Positions 41,281-60,229 of a stretch of DNA of 64,000 bases are shown in pieces. The stretch spans positions 164,563 to 228,562 of the forward strand of contig JADYZM010000004.1 of NCBI GenBank assembly GCA_020853105.1, written 5' to 3'. The notes below the pieces were generated by a model. That model worked only from the letters and a program-made list of their open reading frames with translations, did not search any database and was not told where the DNA came from. Positions within the stretch are counted from its first letter, which is position 1, and every line of letters begins with the position of its first letter. Position numbers and translations under genes: made by a program. Source of the DNA: Flavobacteriales bacterium. Its GTDB lineage: Bacteria; Bacteroidota; Bacteroidia; Flavobacteriales_E; Vicingaceae.

Positions 41281-41310
41281 TTTTTAAGTAATTTTAATTA
41301 CTTATTAATA

Positions 41311-41614
41311 TGTCCTATAATGGATTGCATTATGTTAATATAGCTTAGGTTTTTAAAGAATTAATTCTTTAAAAAGGGCAAAAAAAATTATTAAAAAATT
41401 TCATGTAAGGGTTTAAAATTTGCTATTTTTCATAGCAATTTTAAACGCTTACCTACCGCTTTTTTTAGCAAAAAATGGGTAAAGCTTTTTCTGCTTTACT
41501 TATTTTTTAGCTGCGTGAGGGATAGAAGCGGCATCCTTTCTGTTTTTCACAGAAAGATACAGCGGATAGCCCGACCTTTAGGGCACGCCCAAATCATCTA
41601 ACTTTGCCTTAATA
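41311..41614 (+). repeat. 304-bp structured intergenic element, copy 1
   Basis: Near-identical, equal length to 50720-51023; contains a 26-bp palindrome, two hairpins and the conserved GCGTGAGGGATAGAAGCGGCATCC...CACGCCC module. Confidence 0.9.
41513..41590 (+). ncRNA. Structured RNA module, resembles Flavo-1 RNA (family name from memory)
   Basis: GCGTGAGGGATAGAAGCGGCATCCTTTCTGTTTTTCACAGAAAGATACAGCGGATAGCCCGACCTTTAGGGCACGCCC: GCGTG/CACGC closing stem plus CTTTCTG/CAGAAAG hairpin. Confidence 0.6.
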
Positions 41615-41631
41615 GAATTTTAGAAACTTTT

Positions 41632-41847
41632 CTATTTAATTTCTCCCTCATTTTTCAAATTATCTATCATTTGAAGATATACTTCTTCCCAAGAATTGCC
41701 TGTAACACCAAAATAAGAATATTGGTTAACATCTTTATAGTTAATTGATTTTACTCCATTATTTTCCTGACAATCAAGAAAAACCTCAATGTTATCTTTA
41801 ATGATTAATCTACCAATTAATTTATTGATAACTTCCGAGCGAGTCAT
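41632..41847 (-). CDS. Small hypothetical protein (71 aa)
   Basis: Good amphipathic composition, own intergenic context; no recognised family. Confidence 0.5.
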   Translation of the reverse strand: MTRSEVINKLIGRLIIKDNIEVFLDCQENNGVKSINYKDVNQYSYFGVTGNSWEEVYLQMIDNLKNEGEIK

Positions 41848-41974
41848 TTAGATTCCTTTTAAATTATTTTTGTAACTTCAAAATTGGTAATTTTAAAATA
41901 TATTTGTATCAAATTAAAAACTAAAAAATATAAAAGAAAACTAAATTAAAATATTGTATAGCGTTAAGCTGTAT

Positions 41975-42099
41975 TACTTGCTAGAGAAAATTGGGAATTT
42001 CAAACGCAACAAGTTATACAGGCAAAACGCTCACCGCTTGGGGTGGGCTTTGCTTGTTTTGTTGTGTGGGTATCCCAATACCTCTCTAGCAGACAAGTA
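41975..42099. repeat. ~125-bp long imperfect inverted repeat
   Basis: TACTTGCTAGAGA...ATTGGGA...CGCAACAA / TTGTTGTG...TCCCAAT...TCTCTAGCAgaCAAGTA. Confidence 0.75.
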
Positions 42100-42153
42100 T
42101 TTGTTCCACCCCTCTTTTTTTTGAGGGGATTTATTAACTAAAGTAACCTCGTT

Positions 42154-42525
42154 ATGATTAAAATATTATTGGTTGATGATAGTGCTGTCATCAGAAAATC
42201 TATCAAGTTTGTTCTCGATGGTCAACCTGAAATACAAGTAATTGGCGAATGTGCTGATGGCAATCAGGTAATCCCTTATTTACAAAATAATAATCCCGAT
42301 GTAATCATAATGGATTATCGTATGCCAATACTTGATGGCGTTGAAGCTACCAAACTGGTAAAAGACTTATTTCCCGAAATAAAAGTGATTGGTTTTTCGT
42401 GCAATGATGATATAATTACCAAAGAATCTTTTCTTAAAAATGGAGCGACTGGTTTTTTGTCTAAATATGAAGCCGACAATAAAACTATTATTGAAGAAAT
42501 AAATACCTGCTATTTAACTACCTGA
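42154..42525 (+). CDS. Stand-alone response regulator receiver (REC) domain protein
   Basis: MIKILLVDDSAVIRKSIKFVLDGQPEIQVIGECADG...VIIMDYRMPILDG..., no output domain. Confidence 0.9.
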   Translation: MIKILLVDDSAVIRKSIKFVLDGQPEIQVIGECADGNQVIPYLQNNNPDVIIMDYRMPILDGVEATKLVKDLFPEIKVIGFSCNDDIITKESFLKNGATGFLSKYEADNKTIIEEINTCYLTT

Positions 42526-42711
42526 GTGTTTATAGGCGTTTCAAGAATAAAACTATTTATCTAAATTTATCCATCAGAAGAAAACATGAAAATAAATTTT
42601 TATTTATTGATAATTTTTATTTACTTTTAAATATCTATTCTTTTTTGAATTAGAGAGAACTTATTATAATAAAATGAATAAATGTACTAACTAACCCTAA
42701 AACTTTATATT

Positions 42712-45700
42712 ATGAAAAAAATAGCCCTAATCTTTTTGTTTGCTATGATAGCAAATTTTGTGTACAGCCAATCTGCACAACCACAAGTAAATTCAAATCA
42801 GCAACCATTATGGCAAACTGGAAAACTTTATGTTAAGATTGACAACATTTCAAATTTAGATTTAAGTACTTATCCTAGTATATCAAATCAGGATTTGGCT
42901 AATATAATGGCTCAATATGGTGTTACAAAAGTAGAGAAGCCGTTCGCTGCATTAAATACTCCTGAATTTGACAGAATATATCGGTTCACTTTTACGGATA
43001 CCTTAAATACGGATAGTTTTATTGTCCATCTACTATATCTAAATGATATTGAATATGCCGAGAAAGTACCTATGATGTACCAGCAAATTATTCCAAATGA
43101 CCCGATGCTAGGAAGCCAGTATTATTGGAATATGATTAATGCTGATGGGGCTTCAACTATTTACCAGACTAATCCTAGTCCGTTGAATACAATTGTTGCT
43201 ATTGTAGATGATGCTGTTATGACTACACATGAAGATTTAGCTGCTAATATTTTTACATTAAACAGAGATGTTGCCAATTTGGATAATAACCCTAACCCTC
43301 CATTTAGCGGTATTGCTGCTACCAATGGAACAAGATTTTCTCATGGAACTCATGTTGCAGGTATTGCCAGTGCGGTAACCAACAATAATTTAGGTGTTGC
43401 TTCTGTTGGTTGGAGTAATAATATTATGGCTATTAAAACAAGACTTGATAATGACCCCTCTACAGCTATCCCTTTTGGATATGATGGTATAGCTTGGGCA
43501 GCAGCTAATAATGCAAGAGTAATTAATATGAGTTGGGGTGGTGCGGCTTTCAGTCAGGCAGAATATAATGTTATAGTTGCAGCTCGAAATTTAGATATTG
43601 TACTCGTAGCATCTGCTGGTAATAATTATTCTCCAAATAGCAATTATCCTGCTGCTTACGGAGAAGGAAGCACAGGTCAATCTTGGGAAGTAATTGATAG
43701 AACATTAGTTATTGCAGTAGCCGCTCTTGATATTAATAATGACAAGTCATTTTGGGGATACAATGGTTTTGGACAACCTATGGGGTCTAATTTTGGACAA
43801 TGGGTGGATATTTCAGCTTATGGTACAGCTATACTTAGTTCTATTTCTAACTCTTCTTTTGGATTACCTATAATTAATTAATATGCAAATTATGATGGAA
43901 CTTCTATGGCTGCTCCAATGGTTTCTGGAGTGGCGGGAATTATGAGGTCGTTTAATACATCAGCTACTGCAACTGATATTTATAATTGCCTTGTTTATTC
44001 AGCTAACCCAGATATTTATAATGCTATTTTACATCCAACAAATAATGCAGGAACAATGGGATATGGGAGGTTAGATGCAGAAGCTGCCCTAAAATGTTTA
44101 GGAGTACCTTGTTCCAATAATCCTATTGCCGTAATTACTCCTAGTTCAACCAGTATTTGTCCTGGAGGAACAGTTACATTAACAGCCAATCAAGGAATAG
44201 CATATTCTTGGTCAACAGGAGCTACAACTCAAGGTATTACCATAAATACATCGGGTATTTATTCAGTAACAGTAACTTTTGCTGGTGGCTGTACTGCAAC
44301 TACTTCTTTTAATTTACAGACCGCAGATACACAAGCACACTTAGTCGTTACAGAAAATTCAGGGTTATTGCCTAATGATGGTATATTATGTGGACAAGAT
44401 ATGCTTCAACTTTCTTCATATTTTGGATTAAGTTACCAATGGAGTGCATTTGGTGCAACTACACCAGGAATACCAGGTACGATTAATGCCGGTCCAAATA
44501 GTAATTTACCTTTTACATGGAATTATTGGGTAATTATTTCAGGTGTTGGAGGGTGTTCAGGAGTTGTTGATACAGCTTTTGGAACTGCTATTTGGAATTT
44601 ACCTCCAACAATTACTGTAACATCATCATCACCAACAATTTGTATAGGGGAATCTACTAACCTTACTGCAAGCGGTGCTAATACCTATATATGGAGTCCT
44701 GCTACGGGATTAAGCAGTACAACAGGTTCAACAGTTACTGCTAGCCCAACAACAACGATAACATATACTGTTACAGGCACTGATGTAAATGGATGTGAAG
44801 GTGTAACAACAGTTACAGTTACAGTAAACCCTTTACCTACTGTTGTTGCAACTGCCAGTCCCTACACAGTATGCACAGGACAGTCATCAACATTAACAGC
44901 AAGTGGTGCTTCAACTTATACTTGGAGTCCTGCTACTGGATTAAGTGCTACAACTGGTTCAACAGTAACAGCAACCCCATCGGTAACAACCATTTATACA
45001 GCAACAGGAACAGACGCTAATGGATGTTCAGCAACAGACACTGTAATTGTAAATGTTACCACATGTAGTACGAATCCCGATTGTGCTTTACCTACAACAT
45101 TAACTATTCCAACATCAGGGGCAACTTCAAGTACATTCTCCATACCTAATGGTTCAGTAGTAGATGTTTTAGGCAATTTTACTATTGATAATAATGTAAT
45201 ATATACTGGTGTTAAGTTTAGAATGGCAGCAGGAACTCAGATTGATATATTGACAGGTAACACCCTCACATTATCAACTTGTCATTTATTTTCTTGTACA
45301 CAACTTTGGGAAGAAATTAATGTGCCTAATGGTGCAAACCTAATTGTAAAGAGCTATTCAATTATAGAAGATGCAAAAATTGCAATTAATTGGGTGAATG
45401 GAGGTACTGTTAAAACAGAAAATTCTGTCTTTAATAAAAATGGTGCAGGATTAGCGTTAAGTAACACTATAAGTATTGCTACTAATAATATTGATGTTAG
45501 TAATACTGTATTTACATGTCGTGATTTCCCTAGCTTTGTATATACTGTTACGATTAATCCATTTATATTTAATCTGATTAAAGCAGCTTTATACAATGAT
45601 ATTGTTACGTTTGCTCCATATTCTAGTTTACTATCTCCTGCACCTGCTAATACAAGAAGTTTATACGGAGTGTATAGTAATCGAATAGAAACTACCATTG

Positions 45701-47787
45701 GTACTGCTGGAAATATTAATATAGCTAATTTATTTGACTATTTAGATTATGGTATTTCTGTTAATCATGCTTCTTTCAATGTAATTAATAACCGATTTGC
45801 TAATTGTTTTGGAGATAACTCAAGTACAAACCCTGTTGGTGTGGGTGTTTTTGCCTTAACAAAAGATACTAACAGAATTTATATAGGCGGTAACATACCC
45901 AATCAAGGTAATACATTTAGAAATTGTTACAGAGGAGCTCATATTAATAAGTACTTAAAAGTTGATTTTATCAATAACAAAGTATTAAATACTCAAACAT
46001 CTCCTAATTTTTCAGGTGTAGGTAGCTTTATTGGACATTATGGGCTGGCAATATTTACAGGTCTAAATTTAGGTAGTAATACAGTAACCGATTTCCATAT
46101 CAATAAAAATACCATTAACAACTGCGAAACAGGTGTGTATATTAATCGAAACTGGAGCAATATAGAAACCATTGCTTTAGAAATACATGATAATAACATT
46201 GATGTAACAGGTTCTGGAACTTATTGTAACAGAGGTTTCTGGATACAGGATGTGGCAGGTAATACAGCCATTTCTACTCCACCTACGGCAGTAAATGTAC
46301 AAAACAATACTATCAGGAATTGTGAAATTAATGCCATGTTGTTTGATAATGTAAAACGAAGCTTATTAGTAAGAGACAACAACGAATTATCTGTAAAACT
46401 ATCTGCACCACAAAGCCGACAAGTGATAAGATTAAATGCTTGTGATTATGGAATAGTTAGAGAAAATACAACTATAAAAACTACCAACAATACAACAATT
46501 CCTGTTGGAGCTACAACAAGTAATTTTATTACTGGTATATGGGTAAGTCAAAGTCCTAATAGTAACGTGATATGTAATACAGTAAATTATGTAGATGCTT
46601 GTTTGTTATTTGACCAGCCAAGTCCTAATAGTAATGTTACTAGAAACATAATGGACAAAGCTCGTATTGGTTTAGTGTTAGCCAATGGAGGAGAAATAGG
46701 TACACAAGGAAGTCCTACCAGCCCTAGTGGAAATAGTTGGGGAGCATTTAATAGCAGTCATATTAATCTTGCACATACCTATACTTTTAATACCTTTAAT
46801 GCTAATACTAACTCCATATTGTATTGCCGCCCAAATACTTCTCCTTGTAGTTTTGGTGCTTTTAAATCGTTCCCTTGTGTAAATCAAACATTTAATCCAA
46901 GTTTCCAATACGCATCAGGAAGTGGCTTACAAACGGCAACAGGATTAAATTTGGCGTGTGCTATCATAGTTATTGGACCTCCTGTATTTAAAATGGCTGA
47001 TGTAGTAAATGCCATTACCGATAATACTGCTAATGGTAGTTTTATTCAAAACATACGATTCAAACAGAAAAGATTTGGATTTACCAGTACCAAAGAAGAC
47101 AATACTGGAACTTTAATGAGTAACAGTACTATCAATACCTTTTATAACCAAACCCAACCTCAGAATATCGGATTATTAACGACTACCGAAGATTTAATTA
47201 ACCAAAAACAATACAGTAGTGCAAAAATGAACAATCTTGCTGCACCTGTTACCAATACGGTAGAAGCTAATTATCAACTGGTATATGATAAAGTATTAGA
47301 GCAACTGGTGGATACAGGTTATGTTTACACTCCTACTGATATTTTACAGATAGAAAATGTGGCTCAATTGTGTATGCAGGAAAATGGAGAAGCCGTTACG
47401 ATGGCAAGAGCTTTACTGGCATCCATAAGAAAAGAAGGAGTAAGTTATAATAACGATTGTATAGAAATGCCTTTTGAAAATAATGGTAATCGTTTGATGC
47501 AACAAGAAGAAACAAATCATATAGCCTCAGAAGTTAGCGATGTATTAATTTATCCTAATCCAAACAAGGGAACATTTACGGTTCAATATGAAACAAATGA
47601 AGAAGAACAGTTGACATTGACTATTGTTGAATTGACTGGAAAAATAGTGCATCAGGAAACATTACCTGTAGGATTTCAGGAAAAAGAGATTATTACTGAA
47701 AATATAGGAACTGGATTTTATTTCATAACTATCAAAACAAAATCGGGTATTTTAACCTATTCTACAAAAATGAGTATTGTAAAATAG
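42712..47787 (+). pseudogene. S8 subtilisin-like T9SS-secreted protease / beta-helix giant, split by one in-frame TAA (43879-43881)
   Basis: ORFs 42712-43881 and 43906-47787 are in the same frame. Asp (IVDDAV) and His (SHGTHVAGIAS) lie before the stop, Ser (GTSMAAPMVSG) after. Then Ig-like repeats, parallel beta-helix-like region and T9SS CTD (IYPNPNKGTF...). Confidence 0.8.
44620..45062 (+). repeat. Two tandem Ig-like (PKD/CHU-type) repeats
   Basis: SPTICIGESTNLTASGANTYIWSPATGLSSTTGSTVTASPTTTITYTVTGTDVNGC.. / SPYTVCTGQSSTLTASGASTYTWSPATGLSATTGSTVTATPSVTTIYTATGTDANGC.. Confidence 0.88.
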
Positions 47788-47792
47788 TAGTA

Positions 47793-49001
47793 ATGTTTAA
47801 CATAAAACATATACTATTGTTTCTAATTCTGGGAGTATCAAATGGGTACTCCCAGAATTTAATACTTAATTATTCGTTTGAAAATATTAATCAATGCCCT
47901 GATATGGTTAACTTTGGAAGTGTTGATAGTTGTATTGCATCGTGGGAAGACCCAACTGATGGTACTTCTGATTGTTATAATACATGTGTAGCTGCATTAC
48001 CTTTTTCAACAATCCCTTCTCATAATAATGGATATGGGTATCAATTTCCAAGAACAGGAAATGGGTATGCTGGTATTTTTGTTTATCAAGGTGCATCAAT
48101 GTATAGAGAGTATATTCATTCTAAACTATTAGATAGTTTGAAACAAGATAGCTGCTATTATATGGAGTTCTATGTTAATAAAATGAACATGGCAAGGTAT
48201 GCAGTTAATTTAGGATGTTACTTATCTAATATAACAATAAACAATAGTTCAGGACCTTTTTTTTTACTTAATTATACTCCACAAATCGAGCAGCCTAATT
48301 CTTCAATGTTAACTGATACGTTAAATTGGGTTAGAATTAACGGCGTTTATAAGGCAAATGGGGGAGAACAATTTATTACCATCGGTAATTTTAATAACAA
48401 TACAACAATAGATACTCTAACTGTTGGGGATACTGGAAATAATGGAGCATATTATTATGTAGAAGATGTTATTTTAAAACTAATCCCAAACAATATTAAT
48501 GTTGCTGATGCAGGAAATAATCAAAATATTATTCAAGGGGATAGTGTACAAATAGGAAATAATTCTTTAAGCGATGCTGTTTACAGTTGGTATCCAAGTG
48601 CAGGGTTAAATGATACAACATTGGAAAACCCTATTGCTAAACCAACAGTTACAACTACCTACTACTGTATAAAAGATGCCTGTAACAGTCAAACCATTGA
48701 TAGTGTAACAGTAACAGTACAGCCTAATGGTGTAGAAAATTATTACAATAATAAAAACTTTAAAATATACCCTAACCCTAATAACGGTATTTTTAATATC
48801 TCACACAACCTTAATGAAGAAAATTACGTCTTGGAAATAACAGATATAACAGGAAAAGTTGTTTATCATCAATATTTTAATAACATGAGAAATACTGAAA
48901 CAATAATAATTAATTCTTTAGAAACAGGATTTTATTTTGTAGGGATTTCTGATAATCAGAAAAGATTATTGTACTTAACAAAAATGAGCGTTATTAACTA
49001 A
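47793..49001 (+). CDS. T9SS type A sorting domain protein with jelly-roll-like N-terminal domain (cassette 1, gene 2)
   Basis: NLILNYSFENINQCPD...; CTD IYPNPNNGIFNISHNL...LETGFYFVGISDNQKRLLYLTKMSVIN; paralog of 57072-58265. Confidence 0.88.
   Translation: MFNIKHILLFLILGVSNGYSQNLILNYSFENINQCPDMVNFGSVDSCIASWEDPTDGTSDCYNTCVAALPFSTIPSHNNGYGYQFPRTGNGYAGIFVYQGASMYREYIHSKLLDSLKQDSCYYMEFYVNKMNMARYAVNLGCYLSNITINNSSGPFFLLNYTPQIEQPNSSMLTDTLNWVRINGVYKANGGEQFITIGNFNNNTTIDTLTVGDTGNNGAYYYVEDVILKLIPNNINVADAGNNQNIIQGDSVQIGNNSLSDAVYSWYPSAGLNDTTLENPIAKPTVTTTYYCIKDACNSQTIDSVTVTVQPNGVENYYNNKNFKIYPNPNNGIFNISHNLNEENYVLEITDITGKVVYHQYFNNMRNTETIIINSLETGFYFVGISDNQKRLLYLTKMSVIN
47825..47859 (+). promoter_or_regulatory. 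13-bp perfect hairpin in the signal-peptide coding region
   Basis: AATTCTGGGAGTA tcaaatggg TACTCCCAGAATT. Confidence 0.7.
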
Positions 49002-49012
49002 AAACAGTAATT

Positions 49013-49570
49013 ATGAAAACATTAAAAACTATCATTCTTATCATTGCTTTTTTACCTTTAAAGTTTTATGGTCAATGTTTTTCTTATGTTGTAATAACAA
49101 CTCCTCCGAGTTGTCCATCTTGTTGCGATGGTTCTATTACAATTGATAGCCTTACAGGAGGATGCCCTCCATATTCTTATACATGGTCAAACGGAAGTAA
49201 TACACCAATTATTTATCCAATATGTTTCGACTCAACTTTTTCATTAACAATTACTGATGCAGGGCAATGCTGTCCAGACACTTCTTTTAATCTTAAAATT
49301 GCATCATCAACAAGTTTAAATGAGTATGAGATACTTTACAATAGCTTTATTGTTACTCCCAACCCTAACAATGGGAGTTTCACTATTGATATAGATAATA
49401 TTGAAAATGCAACTATTGAAATCTATAACATTTCAGGGCAACTTATTTTAAAGGAAGCATTATTGAAAAGCATTACACCAATTAATTTAAAAGAAAATCC
49501 AAAAGGAATCTATTTTGTGAAAATAGAAACTGAAAATAAAGCAATTGTCAGAAAGATTACCTATCAATGA
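49013..49570 (+). CDS. SprB-repeat-like T9SS type A sorting domain protein (cassette 1, gene 3)
   Basis: TTPPSCPSCCDGSITIDSLTGGCPPYSYTWSNGSNT; CTD VTPNPNNGSFTIDIDNIENATIEIYNISGQLILKE. Confidence 0.87.
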   Translation: MKTLKTIILIIAFLPLKFYGQCFSYVVITTPPSCPSCCDGSITIDSLTGGCPPYSYTWSNGSNTPIIYPICFDSTFSLTITDAGQCCPDTSFNLKIASSTSLNEYEILYNSFIVTPNPNNGSFTIDIDNIENATIEIYNISGQLILKEALLKSITPINLKENPKGIYFVKIETENKAIVRKITYQ

Positions 49571-50317
49571 ATTTACTAATGAGGTGAGTGTTAAAATTTT
49601 TTCAATATAAGAGAGTAGGGGGTAGCAAAAGAAGCTCCCTTATAAAGAGAGCGAAGAGCAACCAAGCTCGAACCAAAGAAACTGAATGTAGAAAACATAA
49701 AGCCACTTATTGCGAATATAAACGAACTTAAAACCACACTTACGATAATAACCTAGCCAAAACCAAGATTTTACACGATAATGACCTAACCAGAAACAGC
49801 CTTTAATAGGACTAATACAGGTATTAATAAGAATACATAACATAATTAAAAATTTAAATGAACCCTTGGCAATACGCCAAGTTAGGCGTTCACAATGGTT
49901 TTGAGTGAGGCAAATGCAAGGAGTAAAGCGGTTTACGGTGTGGTAGCAAAGTGTAGGGCTAAATAGCTTTACTACATTTTATCCTTGCAATTTCCCGAAC
50001 CAATAACCATAACTTTGCTGCAACTTGTGTGTGTCAACCCCAAATCATCAAGCTAATAATTATTGAAACATAGAATTATGTTAAATAGAAAGGCGTGTTG
50101 GCAGGAAAGAAATGCGAGCAAGCGTTTGGCGTGAATGAATAAATGCGTAAAAACAAACAAAAGGGGCTTGTTCTTTTGTTGCGTAGCAAACAATTACTTT
50201 TGTATTGTTTTAGCATTTGTACAGAGAGCGAAGATAGCATATTTCTTTCTTGATTTTTTGGTTCTTTTTTATCAAGAAAAAAGAACAAATAAAACCACGA
50301 CAGTGAACGCAGCATAG

Positions 50318-50363
50318 AAAAATGCGAATAAAGCCTTAAAATTATTAAGGCAAACGCATTTTT
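50318..50363. repeat. Conserved hairpin in repeat A
   Basis: AAAAATGCG..GCCTTAA aatta TTAAGGC..CGCATTTTT; same stems in copy B at 59849-59889 with a shorter loop. Confidence 0.7.
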
Positions 50364-50445
50364 TGTATGCAAGTGAACTACCATATAATTTTTTTGAGCG
50401 AGGGCAAAAAGAATAAATTTTTTAAAAAAGAAAGGCAATGTGCGG

Positions 50446-50751
50446 CTATTTACACATAATGTCTAATTATAAGACAAAATGATATACCGAATAAATTCTA
50501 ATCGCTTTAGAATTCAATATTTTTAAATTTGTGGAGAATTATATTGAATACGAAATCCTTCGATACAATTCCGATGAAAAATCGGAATCACTCAGGATGA
50601 CAGTCAGAGCGATGGAATGTGCGTTCTATTTACCCGCCAGGGCGAAACGAAGTGGAGACATAATAAGAATTATAAGAAAAAACGAACTAAAAACATACCA
50701 CTAAAAAACAATATCGTTTTGTCTTATAATGTATTGCGTTATGTTAAATAG
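50446..50751. mobile_element. MITE-like element A with ~38-bp imperfect terminal inverted repeats
   Basis: Left CTATTTACACATAATGTCTAATTATAAGACAAAATGATAT; right ATATCGTTTTGTCTTATAATGTATTGCGTTATGTTAAATAG. No transposase. Confidence 0.65.
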
Positions 50752-51023
50752 TCTTAGGTTTTTAAAGAATTAATTCTTTAAAAAGGGCAAAAAAAATTAT
50801 TAAAACAAAATCAAGTAAGGGTTTAAAATTTGCTATTTTTCATAGCAATTTTAAACTCTTACCTACCGCTTTTTTTAGCGAAAAATGTGCCCCGCTTTTT
50901 GGCGGGGCTTATTTTTTAGCTGCGTGAGGGATAGAAGCGGCATCCTTTCTGTTTTTCACAGAAAGATATAGCGGATAGCCCGACCTTTAGGGCACGCCCA
51001 AATCATCTAACTTTGCCTTAATA
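50720..51023 (+). repeat. 304-bp structured intergenic element, copy 2
   Basis: Near-identical to 41311-41614, with a compensatory stem swap at 50889-50908. Confidence 0.9.
50922..50999 (+). ncRNA. Structured RNA module, resembles Flavo-1 RNA, copy 2
   Basis: GCGTGAGGGATAGAAGCGGCATCCTTTCTGTTTTTCACAGAAAGATATAGCGGATAGCCCGACCTTTAGGGCACGCCC; differs from copy 1 at one base. Confidence 0.6.
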
Positions 51024-51140
51024 AAAATCTCTTTTGTTATTCTTTCAGTATATTTCTGATTAGTAACTAAAGGTCTATTATTTAGATACATTCTAAATTA
51101 CAAACAATATGTTTAATATCAATTTTTTTTATATAACTTC

Positions 51141-51167
51141 GGGTTAATTTCTCTTTTTTATTAACCC
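51141..51167 (+). promoter_or_regulatory. 5'-UTR hairpin 17 nt before the ATG of the metzincin giant
   Basis: GGGTTAAT ttctctttttt ATTAACCC. Confidence 0.5.
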
Positions 51168-51183
51168 CTAATATTCCATAATT

Positions 51184-54100
51184 ATGAAAAAAATTATATC
51201 TATCGTAAGTCTATTGGTATTTATAACCAGTTTAAATGCACAAAATTATAGATTACCTACTACAAATGCAGATAGTATACCTGATATGGTGGTTTATGAT
51301 AGGGAAGGTAATTTATATAATGTAAATGATTTACGATTTTCTTTACCCAATCCAAACAACCCACAGTTACAAACAATTTCTCCTACATGTAATGCAGGCA
51401 TCTTTAGACTTCATTTTGTTGATGCTGGACTAAATAGCGGGTTTGATGATCCTATTTTAGGACCTCAAAGACAGGCTGTTGCTTGTCAGGTTTTTACAGA
51501 TTTAAGCCAACTTATAAATGAAGCTAATAGCCCATATTCCTCTATTCCAAATTTAGGGAATGGTAATTCTTTTGTAGAAATTGAAGTAAGACAATCAATT
51601 AATACTTTATCTAACCCAATGTTAGGGATGGCTGGTCAATATTATTTGTCTTCATCATCTGGTATTGTCCATGGTACAGTATGGGAGACTATTAATACTG
51701 GAATAGATTCATGGTTTGGAGTTAATAATAGTAACCTTGGAAATTTTGGAATTTATCATGGATTAATGCAAATAAATTTTGGACATCCTTTTTATTTAGG
51801 AAATAATCCATCAGCTATTCCTTCTGGTGATTTTGATTTATATACAGTGATTTTGCATGAAGCTCTCCATGCTTTAGGTATAGGCTCTCTAATTAATCAA
51901 AATGGCACAAGTAAAATTACCAATACAAATCCAGGTATATATAGTATTTATGATACATATTTAACAGATAATTTGACTGGAAATAAATTAATTAATACAA
52001 CAAATTGCTATAATTCTCAAGCAACTATTTTACCTTTATCGAAACTAACAACCCCTTGTTCTATTACTTTTGATGGAACATCTACAACCTTTGTGTCATC
52101 CGATGCAATTTGGTCTAATGGCACCAGTCTAAGTCATTATCCAATTGGCTCGTGTTCTAATAGTGGAAATTATGTTATGAACCCTTCTTTAGCACCAGGG
52201 ATAACTAGAAGATTCCCTAATATAGAAGAAGTAACAACTCTCTGTGATATAGGTTATTCAACTTCCGGTATTTATGCTTCTACTACTTATCCGTCAATAG
52301 GTAATTGTGGAACAAGAGTGGCTGGTGTTAATGATTATGCTACTTACACAAGTTCAGCTCCCGGAGTAAATTTTCAGACAGCGTTTAATACACCTTTTAA
52401 TTTTTCAAGTTCCGATATATTAGGAAACGATGAAAATGCAACCTATTATGAATGTTTGGAAGTAGTAAATGCCACAGGTATATTAACAGGATTGCTTTCA
52501 GGAAGTGTAGGAAATACAATTACGTTTACTCCAAATACTGGCTATTCAGGTGTTGCCATTTTAAAATATATTCCAAGAGCCAGTGCTACTGGTATTAAGG
52601 GAAATACTACTTACATTTTTATCTTGGTAAGCCCTCCTCCTTTGCCACCATGTACTCCTAACCAATGTGAAATGATTTGTTATGGAGGTTTTGAGGAATT
52701 TACAAGTCAGTTGCAGTATGATTTATATACTCAAGGTGGTTTTGCTGCTGGATGGGCAAACTCTTTTAGTTTCGTACCCCAACCATTTTCTGATAATTCT
52801 CCAGATTTCAGAAATACTACAATTAATTTTCCACTTTACAATGCTTGTTCTGGAGTTTTCACAGCAATTTCTGCTCATTCAGGAATTTCATACATAGGGT
52901 TAATTTTAAGAAATTTTAGTAATGGGGATAATAATCCAGAAGGTCCGTCACTACCATTAAACTCACCATTACTACCTGGAGAAACAGTTACTGTCACGTT
53001 GTGGGCAAGGCTTAATAACAGTCTTTGTCAGGGCGGTATCCAAGCTAGATTTACTAATATGCAACCTTGTCAAAATAATACTTTTCTAGGTAACTGTACA
53101 GGATTAATACAATCTCCAATAATTTCTTCTCCAATAATTACTTCTAATGGTAATATATGGCAACAGCTCACATTAAACTATACAAATAGTACAACTACAA
53201 CTTTTACTCATCTATTAATTAATTCCTTGCCTGCAACAACTGCGGTTTTTCCTATTAATCCAATTTATATTGACGATGTAAGTTGCATTAAAAACACACC
53301 AAATATTACTATTACAAAAACAGCACCTTCAAATGCTTGTCCTAACGATGTAATTACATATACTATTGATGTTTGTAATACCTCTACTTTTCCAGCCAAC
53401 AATGTTCAAATAACCGATGTTTTATCGAATGGATTAACAGTTGTTTCAGGTGGTTCTTTTACTTATCCCACTCAAACTATTTCTAGTTTACCAGCCGGAG
53501 GATGTCAAAGTTTCACTTTAAATGCACAAGTTAATGTTTCTACAGGAACAGTAAGCAATACTGCAACTGTTTCGTCTGGTGGATGTCTGTCTAATATTAC
53601 TACAAATACCACCACCACCACAATCAGTCAACCTACTTTAAACATTACTCAGGTTGCTAGTAGCACCAATCCTATAAGTGGAAGTACAATAAATTTAACT
53701 ATTGATGTTTGTAATAGCACTCCAAATACAGTAAATAATATTATTGTAGAAACGACTGTTCCAAGTGGCAATACCATTTTACCAGGATCTGGATATACAG
53801 TCTTAGGTAATGTTATAACTTTTAATTCTTTTAACTTACCAGCAGGAACAACTACCTCACCATCATGTTTAACTTTTATAATTCCTATTACTGTTAATTG
53901 TAGTGGTTCGGGTTCTATTTGCACATCTATTTTGTCTGGGGGTAATAGTTGTCTATCACAAAATAATTGCACAAACATCAATGTTGTTTCATCAGCTAAT
54001 CTTACTGTTTCGCCATCATCCCCAACGATATGTTCAGGACAATCAACTACATTAACTGCTAGTGGTGCAAATACGTATGTGTGGAATCCCGGAAATTTTT

Positions 54101-57054
54101 CAGGTAATCCTTATGTTGTTTCACCTACAACTACCACGACTTATACTGTTACCGGTACAGATGTTAACGGATGTTCTGCCACTTCTTCGGTTACTGTTAC
54201 CGTTGACCCCAATTGTTGTGGAAGCCTATGTAACCCTTTACCTGCACCATCAGGCATATTATCTGCAACACCACCTCCTTTTCAAAACTATTGCATCAAT
54301 AATAATATTACAGTTGTTGGAAATGTAACACTCCTTTTGAATGAGATTCAAATAGACCCTAATGTTATCATAACTGTTGATAATAATGCTGTATTAACTA
54401 TTGCAGGTTCACATTTGTATGCTTGTGATAAAATGTGGCAGGGAATTGTAGTGAAACCCGGTGGAAGAGTGGTTGTCCAATCTTTTGTTTTAGGTAATTT
54501 CTTTAATCGTTCTTCCTTAATAGAAGATGCTTTTATTGCGATTGATGTTCAGGGAGACCCCTTAATTAACAACAATCCCTTAACGGTAAGCGATGCTACT
54601 TTTAACCGAAATGAAATTAGCATTCAGATTACTGATTATTCTACTATTATAGGTTCTACTACTTATCCAATGACTATAATCAATACTGTATTTACTTCTC
54701 GTGATATTCCTTTCACACCTGGTTCGCTAATTTGGACGAATACCAATGCGATTAAAGCAACTGCCACTGTACCCATACTGCAATCACCTTATATTAATAA
54801 TGCTACTTATTCTCCGTCTAATGTAAATGCGTATTTAAAACTTCCATTTATTGCAGGAACAAGAAAACCATTGGCAGGAATAAGATTAATAAGAGTCGGG
54901 GAGACACAAACTCCTCTAACACCCATCTACCACGAAATTAAAATTGGAGCTCCGGGAAAACCTAGATTTAATGTTTTTGATAATTTATTGATAGGTATAG
55001 ATGCTCATAGTACTAATTTTACGTGTGTCAACAATGTGTTTCAAAATAACCCAGCGAACCAAAAATTAGCTGTTGCCATTAACGCTATTGCAGAAAACCT
55101 TACCAACAACAGGTTAAGAGTTATTCCTGCCGCAGGGAAAAATTTTGCCAATCGTTTTTATGATGTAGGCAGAGCAATCAATTCCATAGATTATTACGAA
55201 AACATAGCTACTTATTGTGATGTTCGCAGTTCATGGAATACTACTGCTCCTATTACTTCACCCTTTGTATTTAATGGTAAGTATGGGTTTATTATAGAAA
55301 CCAACCGATTTAAAATGGTTAATTTCTCCAATAATAGTATGTACAATATAGAAAATGGAATTACTCTTTTCGGTAATTTCGGACCATTTCAAGGTGGCGG
55401 ACCTATATTTAATGGTCAATATTCAGGGCAAATCAATATCAACAACAATACTATACGCCCACATTTACCTGGAAATACGGTTACAACCCAATATGTTGCG
55501 AATGCCATTAGCGTTAGTAATGTGGTTAATGCCAACATCTTTTTTCTTCCTAACTCTACCATTAATGTAAATAATAATAAACTTACGGAGGTATATCGTG
55601 GTATAGGCATAAGTACTTGGACAAAAAAAGATGTAAAAACCAATAACAATACTATTTCGTTGTTAGAAGATGCGTTTACGGCTACCAACCCAACTCCATT
55701 ACAATATGGTATAGCACATCAAGGCAACCGTGCAGCTACCAACTTTGGCAACAGCATTGCCGAAAATGTGGTAAATGGTTTTGGCATTACAGGCAGTGTA
55801 GTTTCAGGAAACCCAAATGTAAGGGCAATAGTTACGGCATTGTGCGGTAATCAGGTGGTGCGTTGTAACAACGTAAACAACACTTTTAAAGGCATTGAGT
55901 TTAGGGGCGATAATTTTCCTACCTCATTTACCAATAACAGCATGACCACCCACCGCTATGGTTTTGTGTTAGACAATGCCGGGTTTATTGGTGTACAAGG
56001 TAATACCACTAGCCCTACCGATAACCGATGGGTAGGTACTTGGACTGCTCCTAACTTTAAAACTGCAACATTGGCAAACCCTACAGCCTCCACTGCCATT
56101 GGCTCGGAATTATGGGTGCGGAATACCTCTAGCATATTTAACCCGAATGGATCGGGATTTGTTCAGGTAGGTTTAGCCTTACAAGATGATTATTTTAACA
56201 ATGGAAGTGCTAATAGTACCTTAAAATATGTTACCAGTAATCCAATAGTTATTGCCTGTAATAGCATATCGCCCTGCTGCCCAAGTACAGGAAAAATAGC
56301 CCGAATGGAACAGGTGATTCAGGAACAAGAACTGTTGGTAAACAACATTGTTGAAACTCGTTACATCAACAAAAATAAAGTGTATCGAATGTTACGAACT
56401 GAACCTGATTTATTGGATAGTTCGATAGTGTTGTCAGACTTCTACAACAACCGATTAACGAGTAACAGTGAAACAATGGCTGCGGTGGAAGAAGATTTTA
56501 TGCTGCCCGATGTGTTCGCTGCCCAATCCAAAACTTCTGGTATGATGGCAACCAACAGCATAGAACAAAACTACCTTACCTTTTTTGAAAGTTACATTAA
56601 ACACCAAACCGATACCATTAACGCTTCGGATAGCTTAACCCTTAGAACACTGGCTATGGGTTGCCCTTTTACTGATGGAGAAGTGGTGTATCAGGCAAGG
56701 GCTTTGTTCAATGCCATTTATATGAGCAATGTTATTTTTGAGGACAATTGTTCTTCTGGAAATGCCCGTATGATGGGTTTTACAGAAAACAATGCAAACA
56801 CAGCATCAACTGATTTGCAAGTTACTATTTACCCGAACCCAACAACCGGTGAAACAACATTGGTTATGGAGGGAGAAGATAATAATTGGTTCATTGCTGT
56901 TTCGGATATTCAAGGGCGAAAAATACACCAAAAAGCCTATACTACTAACAAAATTAACTTAAAATTAGAAGCTGATAACGGGGTATATTTTGTTCACATA
57001 ACAAACAACATTACCAATAAAACAATAACTAAAAAACTAATCATTAATAAATAA
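51184..57054 (+). CDS. Metzincin-like (leishmanolysin-type zinc ligand arrangement) T9SS-secreted giant with DUF11, Ig-like and beta-helix domains
   Basis: VILHEALHALGIGSL, then SLSHYPIGSCSNSGNYVMNPSLAPG (third His and Met-turn candidate). DUF11 repeats (ITKTAPSNACPNDVITYTIDVCNTS...). C-terminal half homologous to 43906-47787; T9SS CTD IYPNPTTGETTLV. Confidence 0.88.
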   Translation: MKKIISIVSLLVFITSLNAQNYRLPTTNADSIPDMVVYDREGNLYNVNDLRFSLPNPNNPQLQTISPTCNAGIFRLHFVDAGLNSGFDDPILGPQRQAVACQVFTDLSQLINEANSPYSSIPNLGNGNSFVEIEVRQSINTLSNPMLGMAGQYYLSSSSGIVHGTVWETINTGIDSWFGVNNSNLGNFGIYHGLMQINFGHPFYLGNNPSAIPSGDFDLYTVILHEALHALGIGSLINQNGTSKITNTNPGIYSIYDTYLTDNLTGNKLINTTNCYNSQATILPLSKLTTPCSITFDGTSTTFVSSDAIWSNGTSLSHYPIGSCSNSGNYVMNPSLAPGITRRFPNIEEVTTLCDIGYSTSGIYASTTYPSIGNCGTRVAGVNDYATYTSSAPGVNFQTAFNTPFNFSSSDILGNDENATYYECLEVVNATGILTGLLSGSVGNTITFTPNTGYSGVAILKYIPRASATGIKGNTTYIFILVSPPPLPPCTPNQCEMICYGGFEEFTSQLQYDLYTQGGFAAGWANSFSFVPQPFSDNSPDFRNTTINFPLYNACSGVFTAISAHSGISYIGLILRNFSNGDNNPEGPSLPLNSPLLPGETVTVTLWARLNNSLCQGGIQARFTNMQPCQNNTFLGNCTGLIQSPIISSPIITSNGNIWQQLTLNYTNSTTTTFTHLLINSLPATTAVFPINPIYIDDVSCIKNTPNITITKTAPSNACPNDVITYTIDVCNTSTFPANNVQITDVLSNGLTVVSGGSFTYPTQTISSLPAGGCQSFTLNAQVNVSTGTVSNTATVSSGGCLSNITTNTTTTTISQPTLNITQVASSTNPISGSTINLTIDVCNSTPNTVNNIIVETTVPSGNTILPGSGYTVLGNVITFNSFNLPAGTTTSPSCLTFIIPITVNCSGSGSICTSILSGGNSCLSQNNCTNINVVSSANLTVSPSSPTICSGQSTTLTASGANTYVWNPGNFSGNPYVVSPTTTTTYTVTGTDVNGCSATSSVTVTVDPNCCGSLCNPLPAPSGILSATPPPFQNYCINNNITVVGNVTLLLNEIQIDPNVIITVDNNAVLTIAGSHLYACDKMWQGIVVKPGGRVVVQSFVLGNFFNRSSLIEDAFIAIDVQGDPLINNNPLTVSDATFNRNEISIQITDYSTIIGSTTYPMTIINTVFTSRDIPFTPGSLIWTNTNAIKATATVPILQSPYINNATYSPSNVNAYLKLPFIAGTRKPLAGIRLIRVGETQTPLTPIYHEIKIGAPGKPRFNVFDNLLIGIDAHSTNFTCVNNVFQNNPANQKLAVAINAIAENLTNNRLRVIPAAGKNFANRFYDVGRAINSIDYYENIATYCDVRSSWNTTAPITSPFVFNGKYGFIIETNRFKMVNFSNNSMYNIENGITLFGNFGPFQGGGPIFNGQYSGQININNNTIRPHLPGNTVTTQYVANAISVSNVVNANIFFLPNSTINVNNNKLTEVYRGIGISTWTKKDVKTNNNTISLLEDAFTATNPTPLQYGIAHQGNRAATNFGNSIAENVVNGFGITGSVVSGNPNVRAIVTALCGNQVVRCNNVNNTFKGIEFRGDNFPTSFTNNSMTTHRYGFVLDNAGFIGVQGNTTSPTDNRWVGTWTAPNFKTATLANPTASTAIGSELWVRNTSSIFNPNGSGFVQVGLALQDDYFNNGSANSTLKYVTSNPIVIACNSISPCCPSTGKIARMEQVIQEQELLVNNIVETRYINKNKVYRMLRTEPDLLDSSIVLSDFYNNRLTSNSETMAAVEEDFMLPDVFAAQSKTSGMMATNSIEQNYLTFFESYIKHQTDTINASDSLTLRTLAMGCPFTDGEVVYQARALFNAIYMSNVIFEDNCSSGNARMMGFTENNANTASTDLQVTIYPNPTTGETTLVMEGEDNNWFIAVSDIQGRKIHQKAYTTNKINLKLEADNGVYFVHITNNITNKTITKKLIINK

Positions 57055-57061
57055 TTTAACT

Positions 57062-57137
57062 CTAAAATTAAATGCACAAACTTTTAATCTTTGTGCATTT
57101 AATTTTAGGTTTATTAAGTCTAAAATTAAATGCACAA
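57062..57137 (+). promoter_or_regulatory. Three-copy (+,-,+) repeat forming two mutually exclusive hairpins over a start codon
   Basis: CTAAAATTAAATGCACAAA (57062-57080), TTTGTGCATTTAATTTTAG (57090-57108), CTAAAATTAAATGCACAA (57120-57137); ATG at 57072-57074 lies in arm 1. Confidence 0.75.
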
Positions 57138-58265
57138 TATAATTTAGTACCAAATTCGAGCTTCGAGATTTATTCAAGTTGCCCGACAACTTCAGGTCAA
57201 ATTATGTTTGCCACACCTTGGCAAATTCCTAATAATGGTACTCCTGACTACTTTCACAGGTGTTCTTCCACATTTGGAGTTCCATCTTATTGCAATTGTA
57301 GTTCAGTCTATCAACAACCTAATTTAGGTGATGCTTATGTGGGTATATGGTGTTGGAATTATATAACGGATACTAGAGAATATATTCAAATTCAATTATT
57401 AGACACCTTAACTATTAATGATTGTTACGTAATTTCATTTTATACTAATCTTGTAAATTGGGCTAAAATTGCTTGTAATAACATTGGTGTTTATCTTTCT
57501 GATACTGCGATAAATTCTACTTCTTTACTAATGGAATACCCAACTCAGATAAAAAACTTTAATAACGAAATAATTACAGATACATTAGATTGGCATAGAA
57601 TAGAAGGGATATATGTTGCTAATGGAAGTGAATTATTTTTAACGATTGGCAATTTTAATAATGATTTAACAACAGACACATTAACAGTAAATTTCTCAAA
57701 TTCTAATGCTGCTTATTACTTCATAGACGATGTATCAGTAATATCCATAGACAGCATACCAGGTGGCATGCCTGCTTATGCAGGAGCAGATACCAATGTG
57801 ATAGTAGGAGATAGCGTATTTATTGGGCAAAAAATAAGTAACTTAAACTGCAATTGGTACAATGCAATAGGTAGTTTAATAGCAAGTGGTACTTCGGGCA
57901 TTTATGTAAACCCTACCGCCAGTACATTTTATGTGGTAGAACAAAACTTATGTGGTGTTATTACGTACGATACCGTAAATGTAACCGTATTGCCAACAAG
58001 TGTTTATGAACTACAAAATGAAAACAACATAAGGCTTTATCCCAACCCTAACAATGGGAGTTTTACTATCATACACAACCTTGAGGGCAAAAATTACGTT
58101 TTAGAAATAATTGATTTAATGGGTAAAATAGTGCATAGCGAAAACATTACTGCTGCCCAACAGGAAATTAGTACGCAACAGTTAAGTAAAGGATTGTACC
58201 TTGTTAATTTAAAAACAAATACAGATAAATTGGTGCATATAACAAAGATGAGTATTGTCCGTTAA
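57072..58265 (+). CDS. T9SS type A sorting domain protein, jelly-roll-like N-terminus (cassette 2, gene 2)
   Basis: NLVPNSSFEIYSSCPTTSGQ...; paralog of 47793-49001; CTD LYPNPNNGSFTIIHNLEGKNYVLEIIDLMGKIVH. Confidence 0.88.
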   Translation: MHKLLIFVHLILGLLSLKLNAQYNLVPNSSFEIYSSCPTTSGQIMFATPWQIPNNGTPDYFHRCSSTFGVPSYCNCSSVYQQPNLGDAYVGIWCWNYITDTREYIQIQLLDTLTINDCYVISFYTNLVNWAKIACNNIGVYLSDTAINSTSLLMEYPTQIKNFNNEIITDTLDWHRIEGIYVANGSELFLTIGNFNNDLTTDTLTVNFSNSNAAYYFIDDVSVISIDSIPGGMPAYAGADTNVIVGDSVFIGQKISNLNCNWYNAIGSLIASGTSGIYVNPTASTFYVVEQNLCGVITYDTVNVTVLPTSVYELQNENNIRLYPNPNNGSFTIIHNLEGKNYVLEIIDLMGKIVHSENITAAQQEISTQQLSKGLYLVNLKTNTDKLVHITKMSIVR

Positions 58266-58310
58266 GGAATGATGTTATGCCAAGATGCTATAACTAAAAA
58301 ACTAAGAGCT

Positions 58311-59108
58311 ATGAAAAAAAAATTATACTTACTTCTCTTTTTATTTTGTGCATATTCAACCCTATCAGCACAACAGCAAGTTACATGCGGAGTTTTTACC
58401 TTTGATGTTTTAATAACACCTGTTACATGTAATGGTGATTGTGATGGTGCTATTCAAATTACTAATATATCAGGAGGAACTCCTTCCTACACCACTTTTT
58501 GGTCAACAGGGAGTACAGTTCCAAGCATTTTTAATTTATGTGCCGATGATTATACGATATTTATATCTGATGCTATGGGTGATACATGCTCTATGACATT
58601 TACTGTTCCACAACCTGCACCAATTCAGGTATCAGAAATTGTTACTGATGCTTCTTGTCCCACATGTTGTGATGGAGCTATTGTATTAACGCCCACTGGA
58701 GGAACACCTCCTTATACTTATACACTATATGATTCATTAGCAAATTCATTTTTTCCTCCTTATTCTAATCTTTGCCCAAGCACTTACAACTGGTGTGTTA
58801 GTGATGCTAATGGCTGTATTACTTGTGATACGCTAGTGTTGTCATTTCCAACCTCTATAATAAGCAATAATATCGTTACTGATTTTTCTATTTATCCTAA
58901 CCCTAACAATGGGAATTTCACTATTGATGTAGGGAATTTTGAAAATGTAACTATCGAAATTTACAACATTTCAGGGCAACTTATTTTAAAGGAATTATTA
59001 TTGAAGAGCATTACACCAATTAATTTAAAAGAAAATCCAAAAGGAGTTTATTTTGTGAAAATAGCAACCGACAATAAAGCTATTGTCAGGAAGATTGCCT
59101 ATCAATGA
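58311..59108 (+). CDS. SprB-repeat-like T9SS type A sorting domain protein (cassette 2, gene 3)
   Basis: Start moved from 58269 to 58311 (signal peptide MKKKLYLLLFLFCAYSTLSAQ). Two SprB-like repeats (VTCNGDCDGAIQITNISGGTPSYTTFWSTG / ASCPTCCDGAIVLTPTGGTPPYTYTLYDS); CTD almost identical to 49013-49570. Confidence 0.87.
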   Translation: MKKKLYLLLFLFCAYSTLSAQQQVTCGVFTFDVLITPVTCNGDCDGAIQITNISGGTPSYTTFWSTGSTVPSIFNLCADDYTIFISDAMGDTCSMTFTVPQPAPIQVSEIVTDASCPTCCDGAIVLTPTGGTPPYTYTLYDSLANSFFPPYSNLCPSTYNWCVSDANGCITCDTLVLSFPTSIISNNIVTDFSIYPNPNNGNFTIDVGNFENVTIEIYNISGQLILKELLLKSITPINLKENPKGVYFVKIATDNKAIVRKIAYQ

Positions 59109-60229
59109 ATTTGCTAATGAGGTGAGTATTAGAAGGTTTTTCAAAATGAGAATAGGAGGGAGTAGCAAAAAAGCTCCCTTATAAAGAGAGCGAAGAGCAA
59201 CCAAGCTCTAACCAAAGAAACTGAATGTAGAAAACATAAAGCCACTTATTGCGACTATAAACGAACTTAAAACCACACTTGCGATAATAACCTAGCCAAA
59301 ACCAAGATTTAACGCGACTTAACCAAAAGAACCATTTAATAGGATTGATACGAGCATTAATAAGAACACATAACATAATAAATAATTTAAATGAACCCTT
59401 GGCAATACGCCAAGTTAAGCGTTCACAATGGTTTTGAGTGAGGTAAATGCAAGGAGTAAAGCGGTTTACGGTGCGGTAGCACAGCGTGTTAGCTAAATAG
59501 CTTTACTACATTTTATCCTTGCAATTTCCCGAACCAATAACCATAACTTTGCTGCAACTTGTGTGTGTCAACCCAAAATCATCAAACTAATTATCGAAAC
59601 ATAGAATTATGTTAAATAGAAAGGCGTGTTGGCAGGAAAGAAATGCGGGCAAGCGTTTGGCTGTGAATGTGCAAATGCTTAGTAATACATGAAAGGCGTT
59701 TACGTTTCCCGATGAAAATCGGGACTACTTTAATAGTATTACTAGCATTTGTACAGAGAGCGTTGAAGCATATTTCTTTCTTGATTTTTTGGTTCTTTTT
59801 TATCAAGAAAAAAGAATAAATCAAACCAATCCAGTGAACGCAGCATAGAAAAATGCGAAATGAAGCCTTATTAAGGCAAACGCATTTTTTGTATGCAAGT
59901 GAACTACCACATAATTTTTTTGAGCGAGGGCAAAAGAATAAATTTTTTAAAAAAGAAAGGCATGTGCGGCTATTTAATATAATGGCTAATTATAAGGACA
60001 AAACGATAACCTTATAAAAATCTAAACTTCCTGAGAATCGAATATTTTTAAATTTACGGAGAATTACCTTGAATACGAGAATTAAGAAGCGTTGGAATGT
60101 GCGTTCTATTTACCCGCCAGGGCGAAACGAAGTGGAGACATAATATTCATTATAATTGACAAAACGAATTAAATACACCAATAAATAAACACTATCGTTT
60201 TGTCTTATAATTAATATTATGTTAAATAG
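59109..60229. repeat. Composite non-coding repeat, copy B (~1.12 kb)
   Basis: Collinear with 49571-50751, including ...GAACCCTTGGCAATACGCCAAG..., TTATGTTAAATAG twice, and CCCGCCAGGGCGAAACGAAGTGGAGACATAATA. Confidence 0.9.
59970..60229. mobile_element. MITE-like element B with imperfect terminal inverted repeats
   Basis: Left CTATTTAATATAATGGCTAATTATAAGGACAAAACGATAA; right CTATCGTTTTGTCTTATAATTAATATTATGTTAAATAG. Confidence 0.65.

Follow-up and report, generated by a model that had tools for sequence, protein, structure and literature searches.

In a 64,000-nt stretch of contig JADYZM010000004.1 from a Flavobacteriales bacterium (family Vicingaceae; assembly GCA_020853105.1), which we will call the window, two units of about 9.4 kb lie in tandem to the left of a site that we take to be the chromosomal dif (Table 1). 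Each unit begins with a repeat of ~310 nt, the left end, which has a dif-like site at its 5' end, two hairpins (P3 and P4), and the Flavo-1 motif (RF01705) near its 3' end. Each unit ends in an inverted dif-like site, which is followed by the next unit or by the chromosomal dif. The site at the 5' end of the repeat consists of TTGTCTTATAA, a 9-nt centre, and TTATGTTAAAT; the same arms surround a 6-nt centre at the chromosomal dif. A normal dif is restored at only one junction in the window. We will call the left sites attP1 and the inverted sites attP2, as in CTXphi, where the sites are laid out this way and the single-stranded attP(+) folds (PMC4246890). The units appear to be islands that were inserted at dif by the host's Xer recombinases, much like CTXphi.

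Our identification of this site as dif, in the terminus of the chromosome, relies on its copy number and on the GC skew. When at most one mismatch is allowed, 40 of the 46 family genomes have the dif pattern, and its exact form is nearly single-copy. In G006, the relative in which we sampled the GC skew, its sign changes at dif, from +0.02 to +0.13 on the left to -0.06 to -0.09 on the right. BipA, like PriA, is encoded to the right of dif. As for the ~310-nt repeat, the source genome has full copies only at these two places, and 25 of the 46 family genomes have matches, many of them partial. (A search at the level of the order returned the same 46 genomes, without any independent addition.) No tRNA or tmRNA was found in the window. 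We rejected RsaE, Spot 42, and other weak Rfam matches over P3 and P4, which were far under their gathering scores.

Table 1. Features of the dif-linked array, in window coordinates
Feature	Position	Strand	Remarks
Unit E1, 9,409 bp	41321..50729	+	left end, cargo, right end, closing XerC arm; bounds inferred from sites
attP1-like dif site of E1	41310..41340	+	9-nt centre TGGATTGCA; dif-arm scan
Left end of E1 (repeat copy 1)	41311..41617	+	92% identity to copy 2
Hairpin P3, copy 1	41405..41452	+	
Stem P4, copy 1	41479..41499	+	arms GTAAAGC 41479-41485 / GCTTTAC 41493-41499
Flavo-1 (RF01705) in E1	41505..41580	+	63.2 bits, cut-off 42
E1 cargo	42154..49570	+	response regulator receiver, S8 subtilase, proteins with type IX secretion system (T9SS) sorting tails
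attP2-like inverted dif site of E1	50449..50477	-	7-nt centre TTAGACA
Unit E2, 9,481 bp	50730..60210	+	bounds inferred from sites
attP1-like dif site of E2	50719..50749	+	9-nt centre TGTATTGCG; dif-arm scan
Left end of E2 (repeat copy 2)	50720..51026	+	92% identity to copy 1
Hairpin P3, copy 2	50815..50862	+	
Stem P4, copy 2 (the stem under study)	50889..50908	+	arms GCCCCGC 50889-50895 / GCGGGGC 50902-50908
Flavo-1 (RF01705) in E2	50914..50989	+	64.1 bits, cut-off 42
E2 cargo	51184..59108	+	large secreted protein, further proteins with T9SS sorting tails
attP2-like inverted dif site of E2	59972..60000	-	7-nt centre TTAGCCA
Chromosomal dif (putative)	60200..60227	+	6-nt centre TTAATA; about one exact match per family genome; GC skew flip in G006
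PriA, core gene right of dif, outside the array	60308..62794	+	

The original prediction concerned P4. It had noted that the four middle pairs of this stem are T/A pairs in copy 1 and C/G pairs in copy 2, while the flanking sequence is almost unchanged. We confirmed the positions of the stems and the swaps: all eight differences between the arms lie at those four pairs, and the pairing is kept. Differences affect 8 of the 14 arm bases of P4, versus 19 of 294 bases elsewhere (Fisher p = 2.6e-6). Also as predicted, a mismatch in the preceding hairpin P3 is a wobble in the second copy (G.G to G.T, at base 41447). The four changes had been described as compensatory. They do preserve the pairing, but four independent compensations are not the best reading. 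Because all eight substitutions are from A/T to G/C, between copies that are otherwise near-identical, they are probably a single event, either the replacement of an arm or a template switch.

We compared P3 and P4 across 19 full elements, which yielded 17 distinct sets of arms. The arms were cut and aligned by hand, with N spacers, because inserts in the loops blurred the consensus fold of the full alignment. In this alignment, which leans toward the structure, 93.4% of the cells are paired over the 17 distinct copies, compared to 86.1% after shuffling, and none of 500 shuffles is as high. Nine pairs changed on both sides, versus 3.2 with shuffling, and again 0/500 shuffles reach nine. In slid controls, pairing falls to 37-57%. 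The double changes are found both in P4 (copies W2, E12, and E07) and in P3 (E04 and E09). The structure of P3 and P4 is beyond chance. Unpaired substitutions, which the original prediction had named as counter-evidence, do occur in places: the pair 40/47 near the tip of P4 does not form in 5 of the 17 copies, and an A.A pair is present in copy E09. Overall, P4 is 91% paired.

The wobbles in P3 and P4 comprise 13 G.T and no A.C, so it is the top strand that folds, either as RNA or as single-stranded DNA. The original prediction had argued for selection on RNA structure. The double changes in several lineages do support selection for the folding of a single strand, but the top strand would fold equally well as DNA, and a single-stranded DNA form is predicted for the kind of mobile element to which the repeat belongs, so the case for RNA in particular does not follow.

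We also observed related inserts of ~50-60 nt (TTCAC...GTTCATGA...) in the loops of P3, P4, or Flavo-1 at five loci (L039, L040, and L042, which are relatives of the window, and L051 and L055). It is as if insertion were tolerated in loops only.

The layout of the sites is conserved. In all nine genomes where a single contig contains both dif and a Flavo-1-type element (G000, G006, G009, G013, G019, G021, G022, G024, and G060), the elements are on the same strand as dif and on its XerC side. The left (attP1) sites have centres of 9-11 nt, while the inverted right-end (attP2) sites have 7-nt centres, mostly TTAGNCA. Many units have an attP2-like site toward their right end, ahead of the next attP1 or of dif. 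As controls, we scored random stretches from these loci. In 11 of 12 cases, none of the stretches scored as high as the site; the remaining case is in the window, whose other attP2 site can be among the stretches drawn. Most of the attP1-like matches in other families are not accompanied by attP2. The exception is G297, from another family of the class, whose locus L295 has attP1-like and inverted attP2-like sites and a start similar to the Flavo-1-containing left ends.

The ends of the units are complementary to each other. Pairing between the 60-nt flanks that lie beyond attP2 and attP1 is predicted at about -10 to -20 kcal/mol, compared to about -6 to -7 kcal/mol for shuffled flanks (which preserved base composition only), and in 8 of 9 elements the complementarity is at or beyond 1 in 200 shuffles. 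The predicted fold of the whole junction is somewhat better for the top strand than for the bottom strand. In a CTXphi-like model of integration, attP1 and attP2 would pair into a hairpin on one strand. Also, the XerC arm to the right of a unit would have come with the unit and therefore should match that unit's attP2. It does match in simple cases, including G013 versus G022 (sites with a shifted or degenerate attP2 arm were left out of this comparison). The variant arm TTGTCC is found in L167, L242, L247, and L251, and TTGTCT at position 50719 of the window and in L233, L236, and L248.

Different units can occupy the same site. In G013 and G022, ~9 kb of left flank and ~10 kb of right flank are alike (92% identity), and the unit between them differs: each has a different restriction-modification cargo between attP1 and dif. 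In G019, contig C23 matches the sequenced part of the second unit of G006 (99%), and G019 has another unit beside dif, whose right flank is the same. (The order of these units is inferred, given contig breaks.) Among the genes that come first in the cargo of relatives are systems of type I, of type IIG (MmeI, Eco57I), and with a C5-methyltransferase, as well as a Z1/MzaC gene, an OLD-like ATPase, and YhcG. Other relatives' units carry secreted proteins or a resistance-nodulation-division (RND) efflux system. Related islands in the family often have anti-phage defence genes; the ten proteins that we scanned were picked for their defence-like look, so this is not an unbiased enrichment. No filamentous phage genes were recognised among the scanned cargo proteins, which are a subset of the open reading frames.

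The left ends fall into three types. Type A contains Flavo-1, type B is conserved but lacks Flavo-1, and type C is ~20 nt long. In type B, a conserved ~270 nt (GGAACACTTTT...AAAGTGTGTGAAGTAGGGGAGG) follows attP1 (L226, L227, L228, and L168:16609) and Flavo-1 is not above its cut-off; we found no attP2 for type B elements within 700 nt. In type C (L236:4309-4879 and L173:11142-11278), attP1 has an 11-nt centre, ~20 nt of the left end is similar, and attP2 is 60-75 nt away.

Other parts of the units are also conserved. The right ends of E1 (49346-50730) and E2 (58884-60211) have ~1.1 kb of conserved noncoding sequence in common, with further hairpins, and relatives have similar right ends. A conserved noncoding region with hairpins at 41931-42160 is 74% alike beside an element in G015 (L047). 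In E1, the first open frame after the left end (41641-41850, - strand) encodes 69 amino acids and is antisense to the left end.

Flavo-1 is also found outside of dif-linked elements, with no dif found nearby. These solitary copies in other Bacteroidota (L063-L127) tend to lie upstream of genes (17 of 38 gaps are divergent and 4 are convergent), and they show no sense bias.

Given the sites, their layout, the complementarity of the ends, the different cargo at one site, and the likeness to CTXphi, we think that the units are likely islands of the type known from CTXphi, that is, integrative mobile elements exploiting Xer (IMEX), at dif, in which no phage genes were recognised. IMEX need not be phages, as the gonococcal genetic island shows. 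P4 would then be one of the hairpins in the left end of a mobile unit of 9.4 kb, and this unit would be one of two in an array at the chromosomal dif. If the unit were circular and single-stranded, the inverted attP2 would pair with attP1, the pairing would run on for ~60 nt to give a folded attP, and a single strand would be exchanged with dif by the host's XerC, as happens with CTXphi. Such an exchange should leave an over-long centre of 9-11 nt at the left junction and a normal dif with a 6-nt centre at the right junction, as observed. The restored dif on the right could receive the next unit. Just inside attP1, P3, P4, and Flavo-1 would make up a folded region that is strand-specific and that most likely acts in the single-stranded DNA stage, for instance in the start of the second strand or in transfer. 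The main alternative for this region is a leader RNA of the cargo operon: its place inside the site, its strand-specific fold, and its exchangeability would suit either function. For P4 by itself, we consider a role as DNA or as RNA to be evenly balanced.

The host encodes candidate recombinases for this reaction. Its XerD scores above the cut-off, none of the genome's five matches for tyrosine recombinases is on the contig of the window, and no integron integrase gene was found next to the array. (One unit of G060, at L163:15322-16149, has its own tyrosine recombinase, which is similar to XerA or an integron integrase but is below the curated cut-offs.)

Several observations weigh against the IMEX interpretation or narrow it. 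The recombinase whose best match is XerC scores below the curated cut-off. The XerC arm of attP2 is shifted by one base in five sites, and the flanks of G021_E1 are no more complementary than shuffles. Because a left end is nearly absent from type C elements, P3, P4, and Flavo-1 lie outside the minimal attP. No transfer genes were recognised in the 9-23-kb units. Synteny did not lead us to an empty site in any close relative, since the genera differ in how genes are ordered around dif. The single-stranded intermediate, the exchange by XerC, its irreversibility, and the role of P4 and Flavo-1 are inferred.

Two other explanations concern P4 itself. The T-rich tail that follows the stem had been thought to resemble a terminator, and in both window copies the hairpin is indeed followed by TTATTTTTT, as if an intrinsic terminator preceded a Flavo-1 RNA. 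But TTATTTTTTAG is the 3' strand of a lower stem and is base-paired, and it is not kept as a T-run in relatives, which read TTATTTAGA or TTATTTTGA. One of its bases changes together with the upstream A-run (A-T in 8/17 copies, T-A in 6/17, and T.G in 1/17). Because the T-run pairs and changes with the A-run, the terminator reading falls; also, most copies have an A/T-rich stem. We consider a terminator to be highly improbable. The four swaps could instead be neutral, if a template switch rewrote one arm from the other and the pairing is not under selection. Eight substitutions of one kind within 14 bases, in copies that are otherwise near-identical, speak for such an event. This may fit the event that separates the window copies (W1/W2), but it does not explain the pairing across 17 copies with several other double changes, and we think it quite unlikely.

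The other alternatives concern the left end and the mode of integration. The left end might be a structured RNA, either a 5' leader or a small RNA, that controls the cargo operon, with P4 selected as RNA; the units could still be IMEX. Folding of the top strand is also expected of a + strand transcript, Flavo-1 is a small RNA in Rfam, and the first cargo gene is mostly on the same strand, reading away from the left end and often within 30-200 nt of it. However, the first gene is antisense in some units (E1 of the window and G013), which weakens the case for RNA. In Flavobacterium psychrophilum, moreover, Flavo-1 matches are equally sense or antisense to transcripts, and many are not transcribed (PMC9723704). 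A structured RNA is a reasonable possibility, but we do not favor it. The units might also be ordinary double-stranded Xer modules, of the type of VGJphi, TLCphi, the gonococcal genetic island, or Acinetobacter pdif, with no part for the hairpins in integration. These use the same host enzymes and the same type of site, and the PhiCjT23-like single-stranded DNA prophages in Flavobacterium lie between putative normal dif sites (PMC9719478). In contrast, the left centres here are consistently 9-11 nt, and an inverted site with a 7-nt centre is retained, with ~60 nt of further complementarity, as in CTXphi (PMC4246890). This makes ordinary duplex modules unlikely.

If the units are IMEX, then defence systems and secreted proteins may be exchanged at one chromosomal spot without a dedicated integrase, and the integration layout of CTXphi would extend to another phylum, in islands without recognised phage genes. 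The islands would also offer a testable setting for the function of Flavo-1, which is a widespread motif. A broader proposal, which we consider doubtful, is that this is a gene-capture platform of Bacteroidota, with housekeeping Xer/dif as the integrase, folded single-stranded ends as the cassette sites, and Flavo-1 as an element of single-stranded DNA, not RNA. Arrays of this kind are easy to overlook, because draft contigs often end within their repeats. We found no published account of these islands in the searchable literature, which does not reach most subscription papers.

The closest known system is the CTXphi-type IMEX of Vibrio cholerae (PMC4246890, PMC5357621), which also integrate at dif, form tandem arrays, and restore a normal dif on one side. 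In both, attP1 has an over-long centre, the inverted attP2 has a short centre, and the ends can fold in single-stranded DNA. The units described here differ in their size (9-23 kb), in their Bacteroidota host, and in that no phage genes were recognised in the scanned proteins. Their attP1 centre is 9-11 nt instead of 12, their loop is ~60-400 nt instead of 90, and they have an extra folded region of ~250 nt with Flavo-1. The Flavo-1 motif (PMC2864571) is matched well by both window copies, but it is usually solitary and dispersed, with no dif nearby, whereas in our units it makes up the 3' part of the ~310-nt end that is linked to dif. The PhiCjT23-like prophages of Flavobacterium (PMC9719478) are also elements at dif in Bacteroidota, but they are phage genomes of 6-8 kb and their flanking sites are putative normal dif sites. 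Integron arrays with attC sites resemble these islands in that gene cassettes are lined up at a single active site with a fixed position, the sites fold as single strands, and the cargo includes defence and other accessory genes; they differ in that our array has no integron integrase, has dif-like sites, and has units of many kb. In the pdif modules of Acinetobacter plasmids, the sites are described as acting as duplex, without a folded double site of unequal centres. Those modules (PMC6449649) and the gonococcal genetic island are similar to our units in tying accessory genes to the host's Xer with dif-like sites; the sites of the gonococcal genetic island are likewise described as acting as duplex, with no folded double site with unequal centres (PMC5357621).
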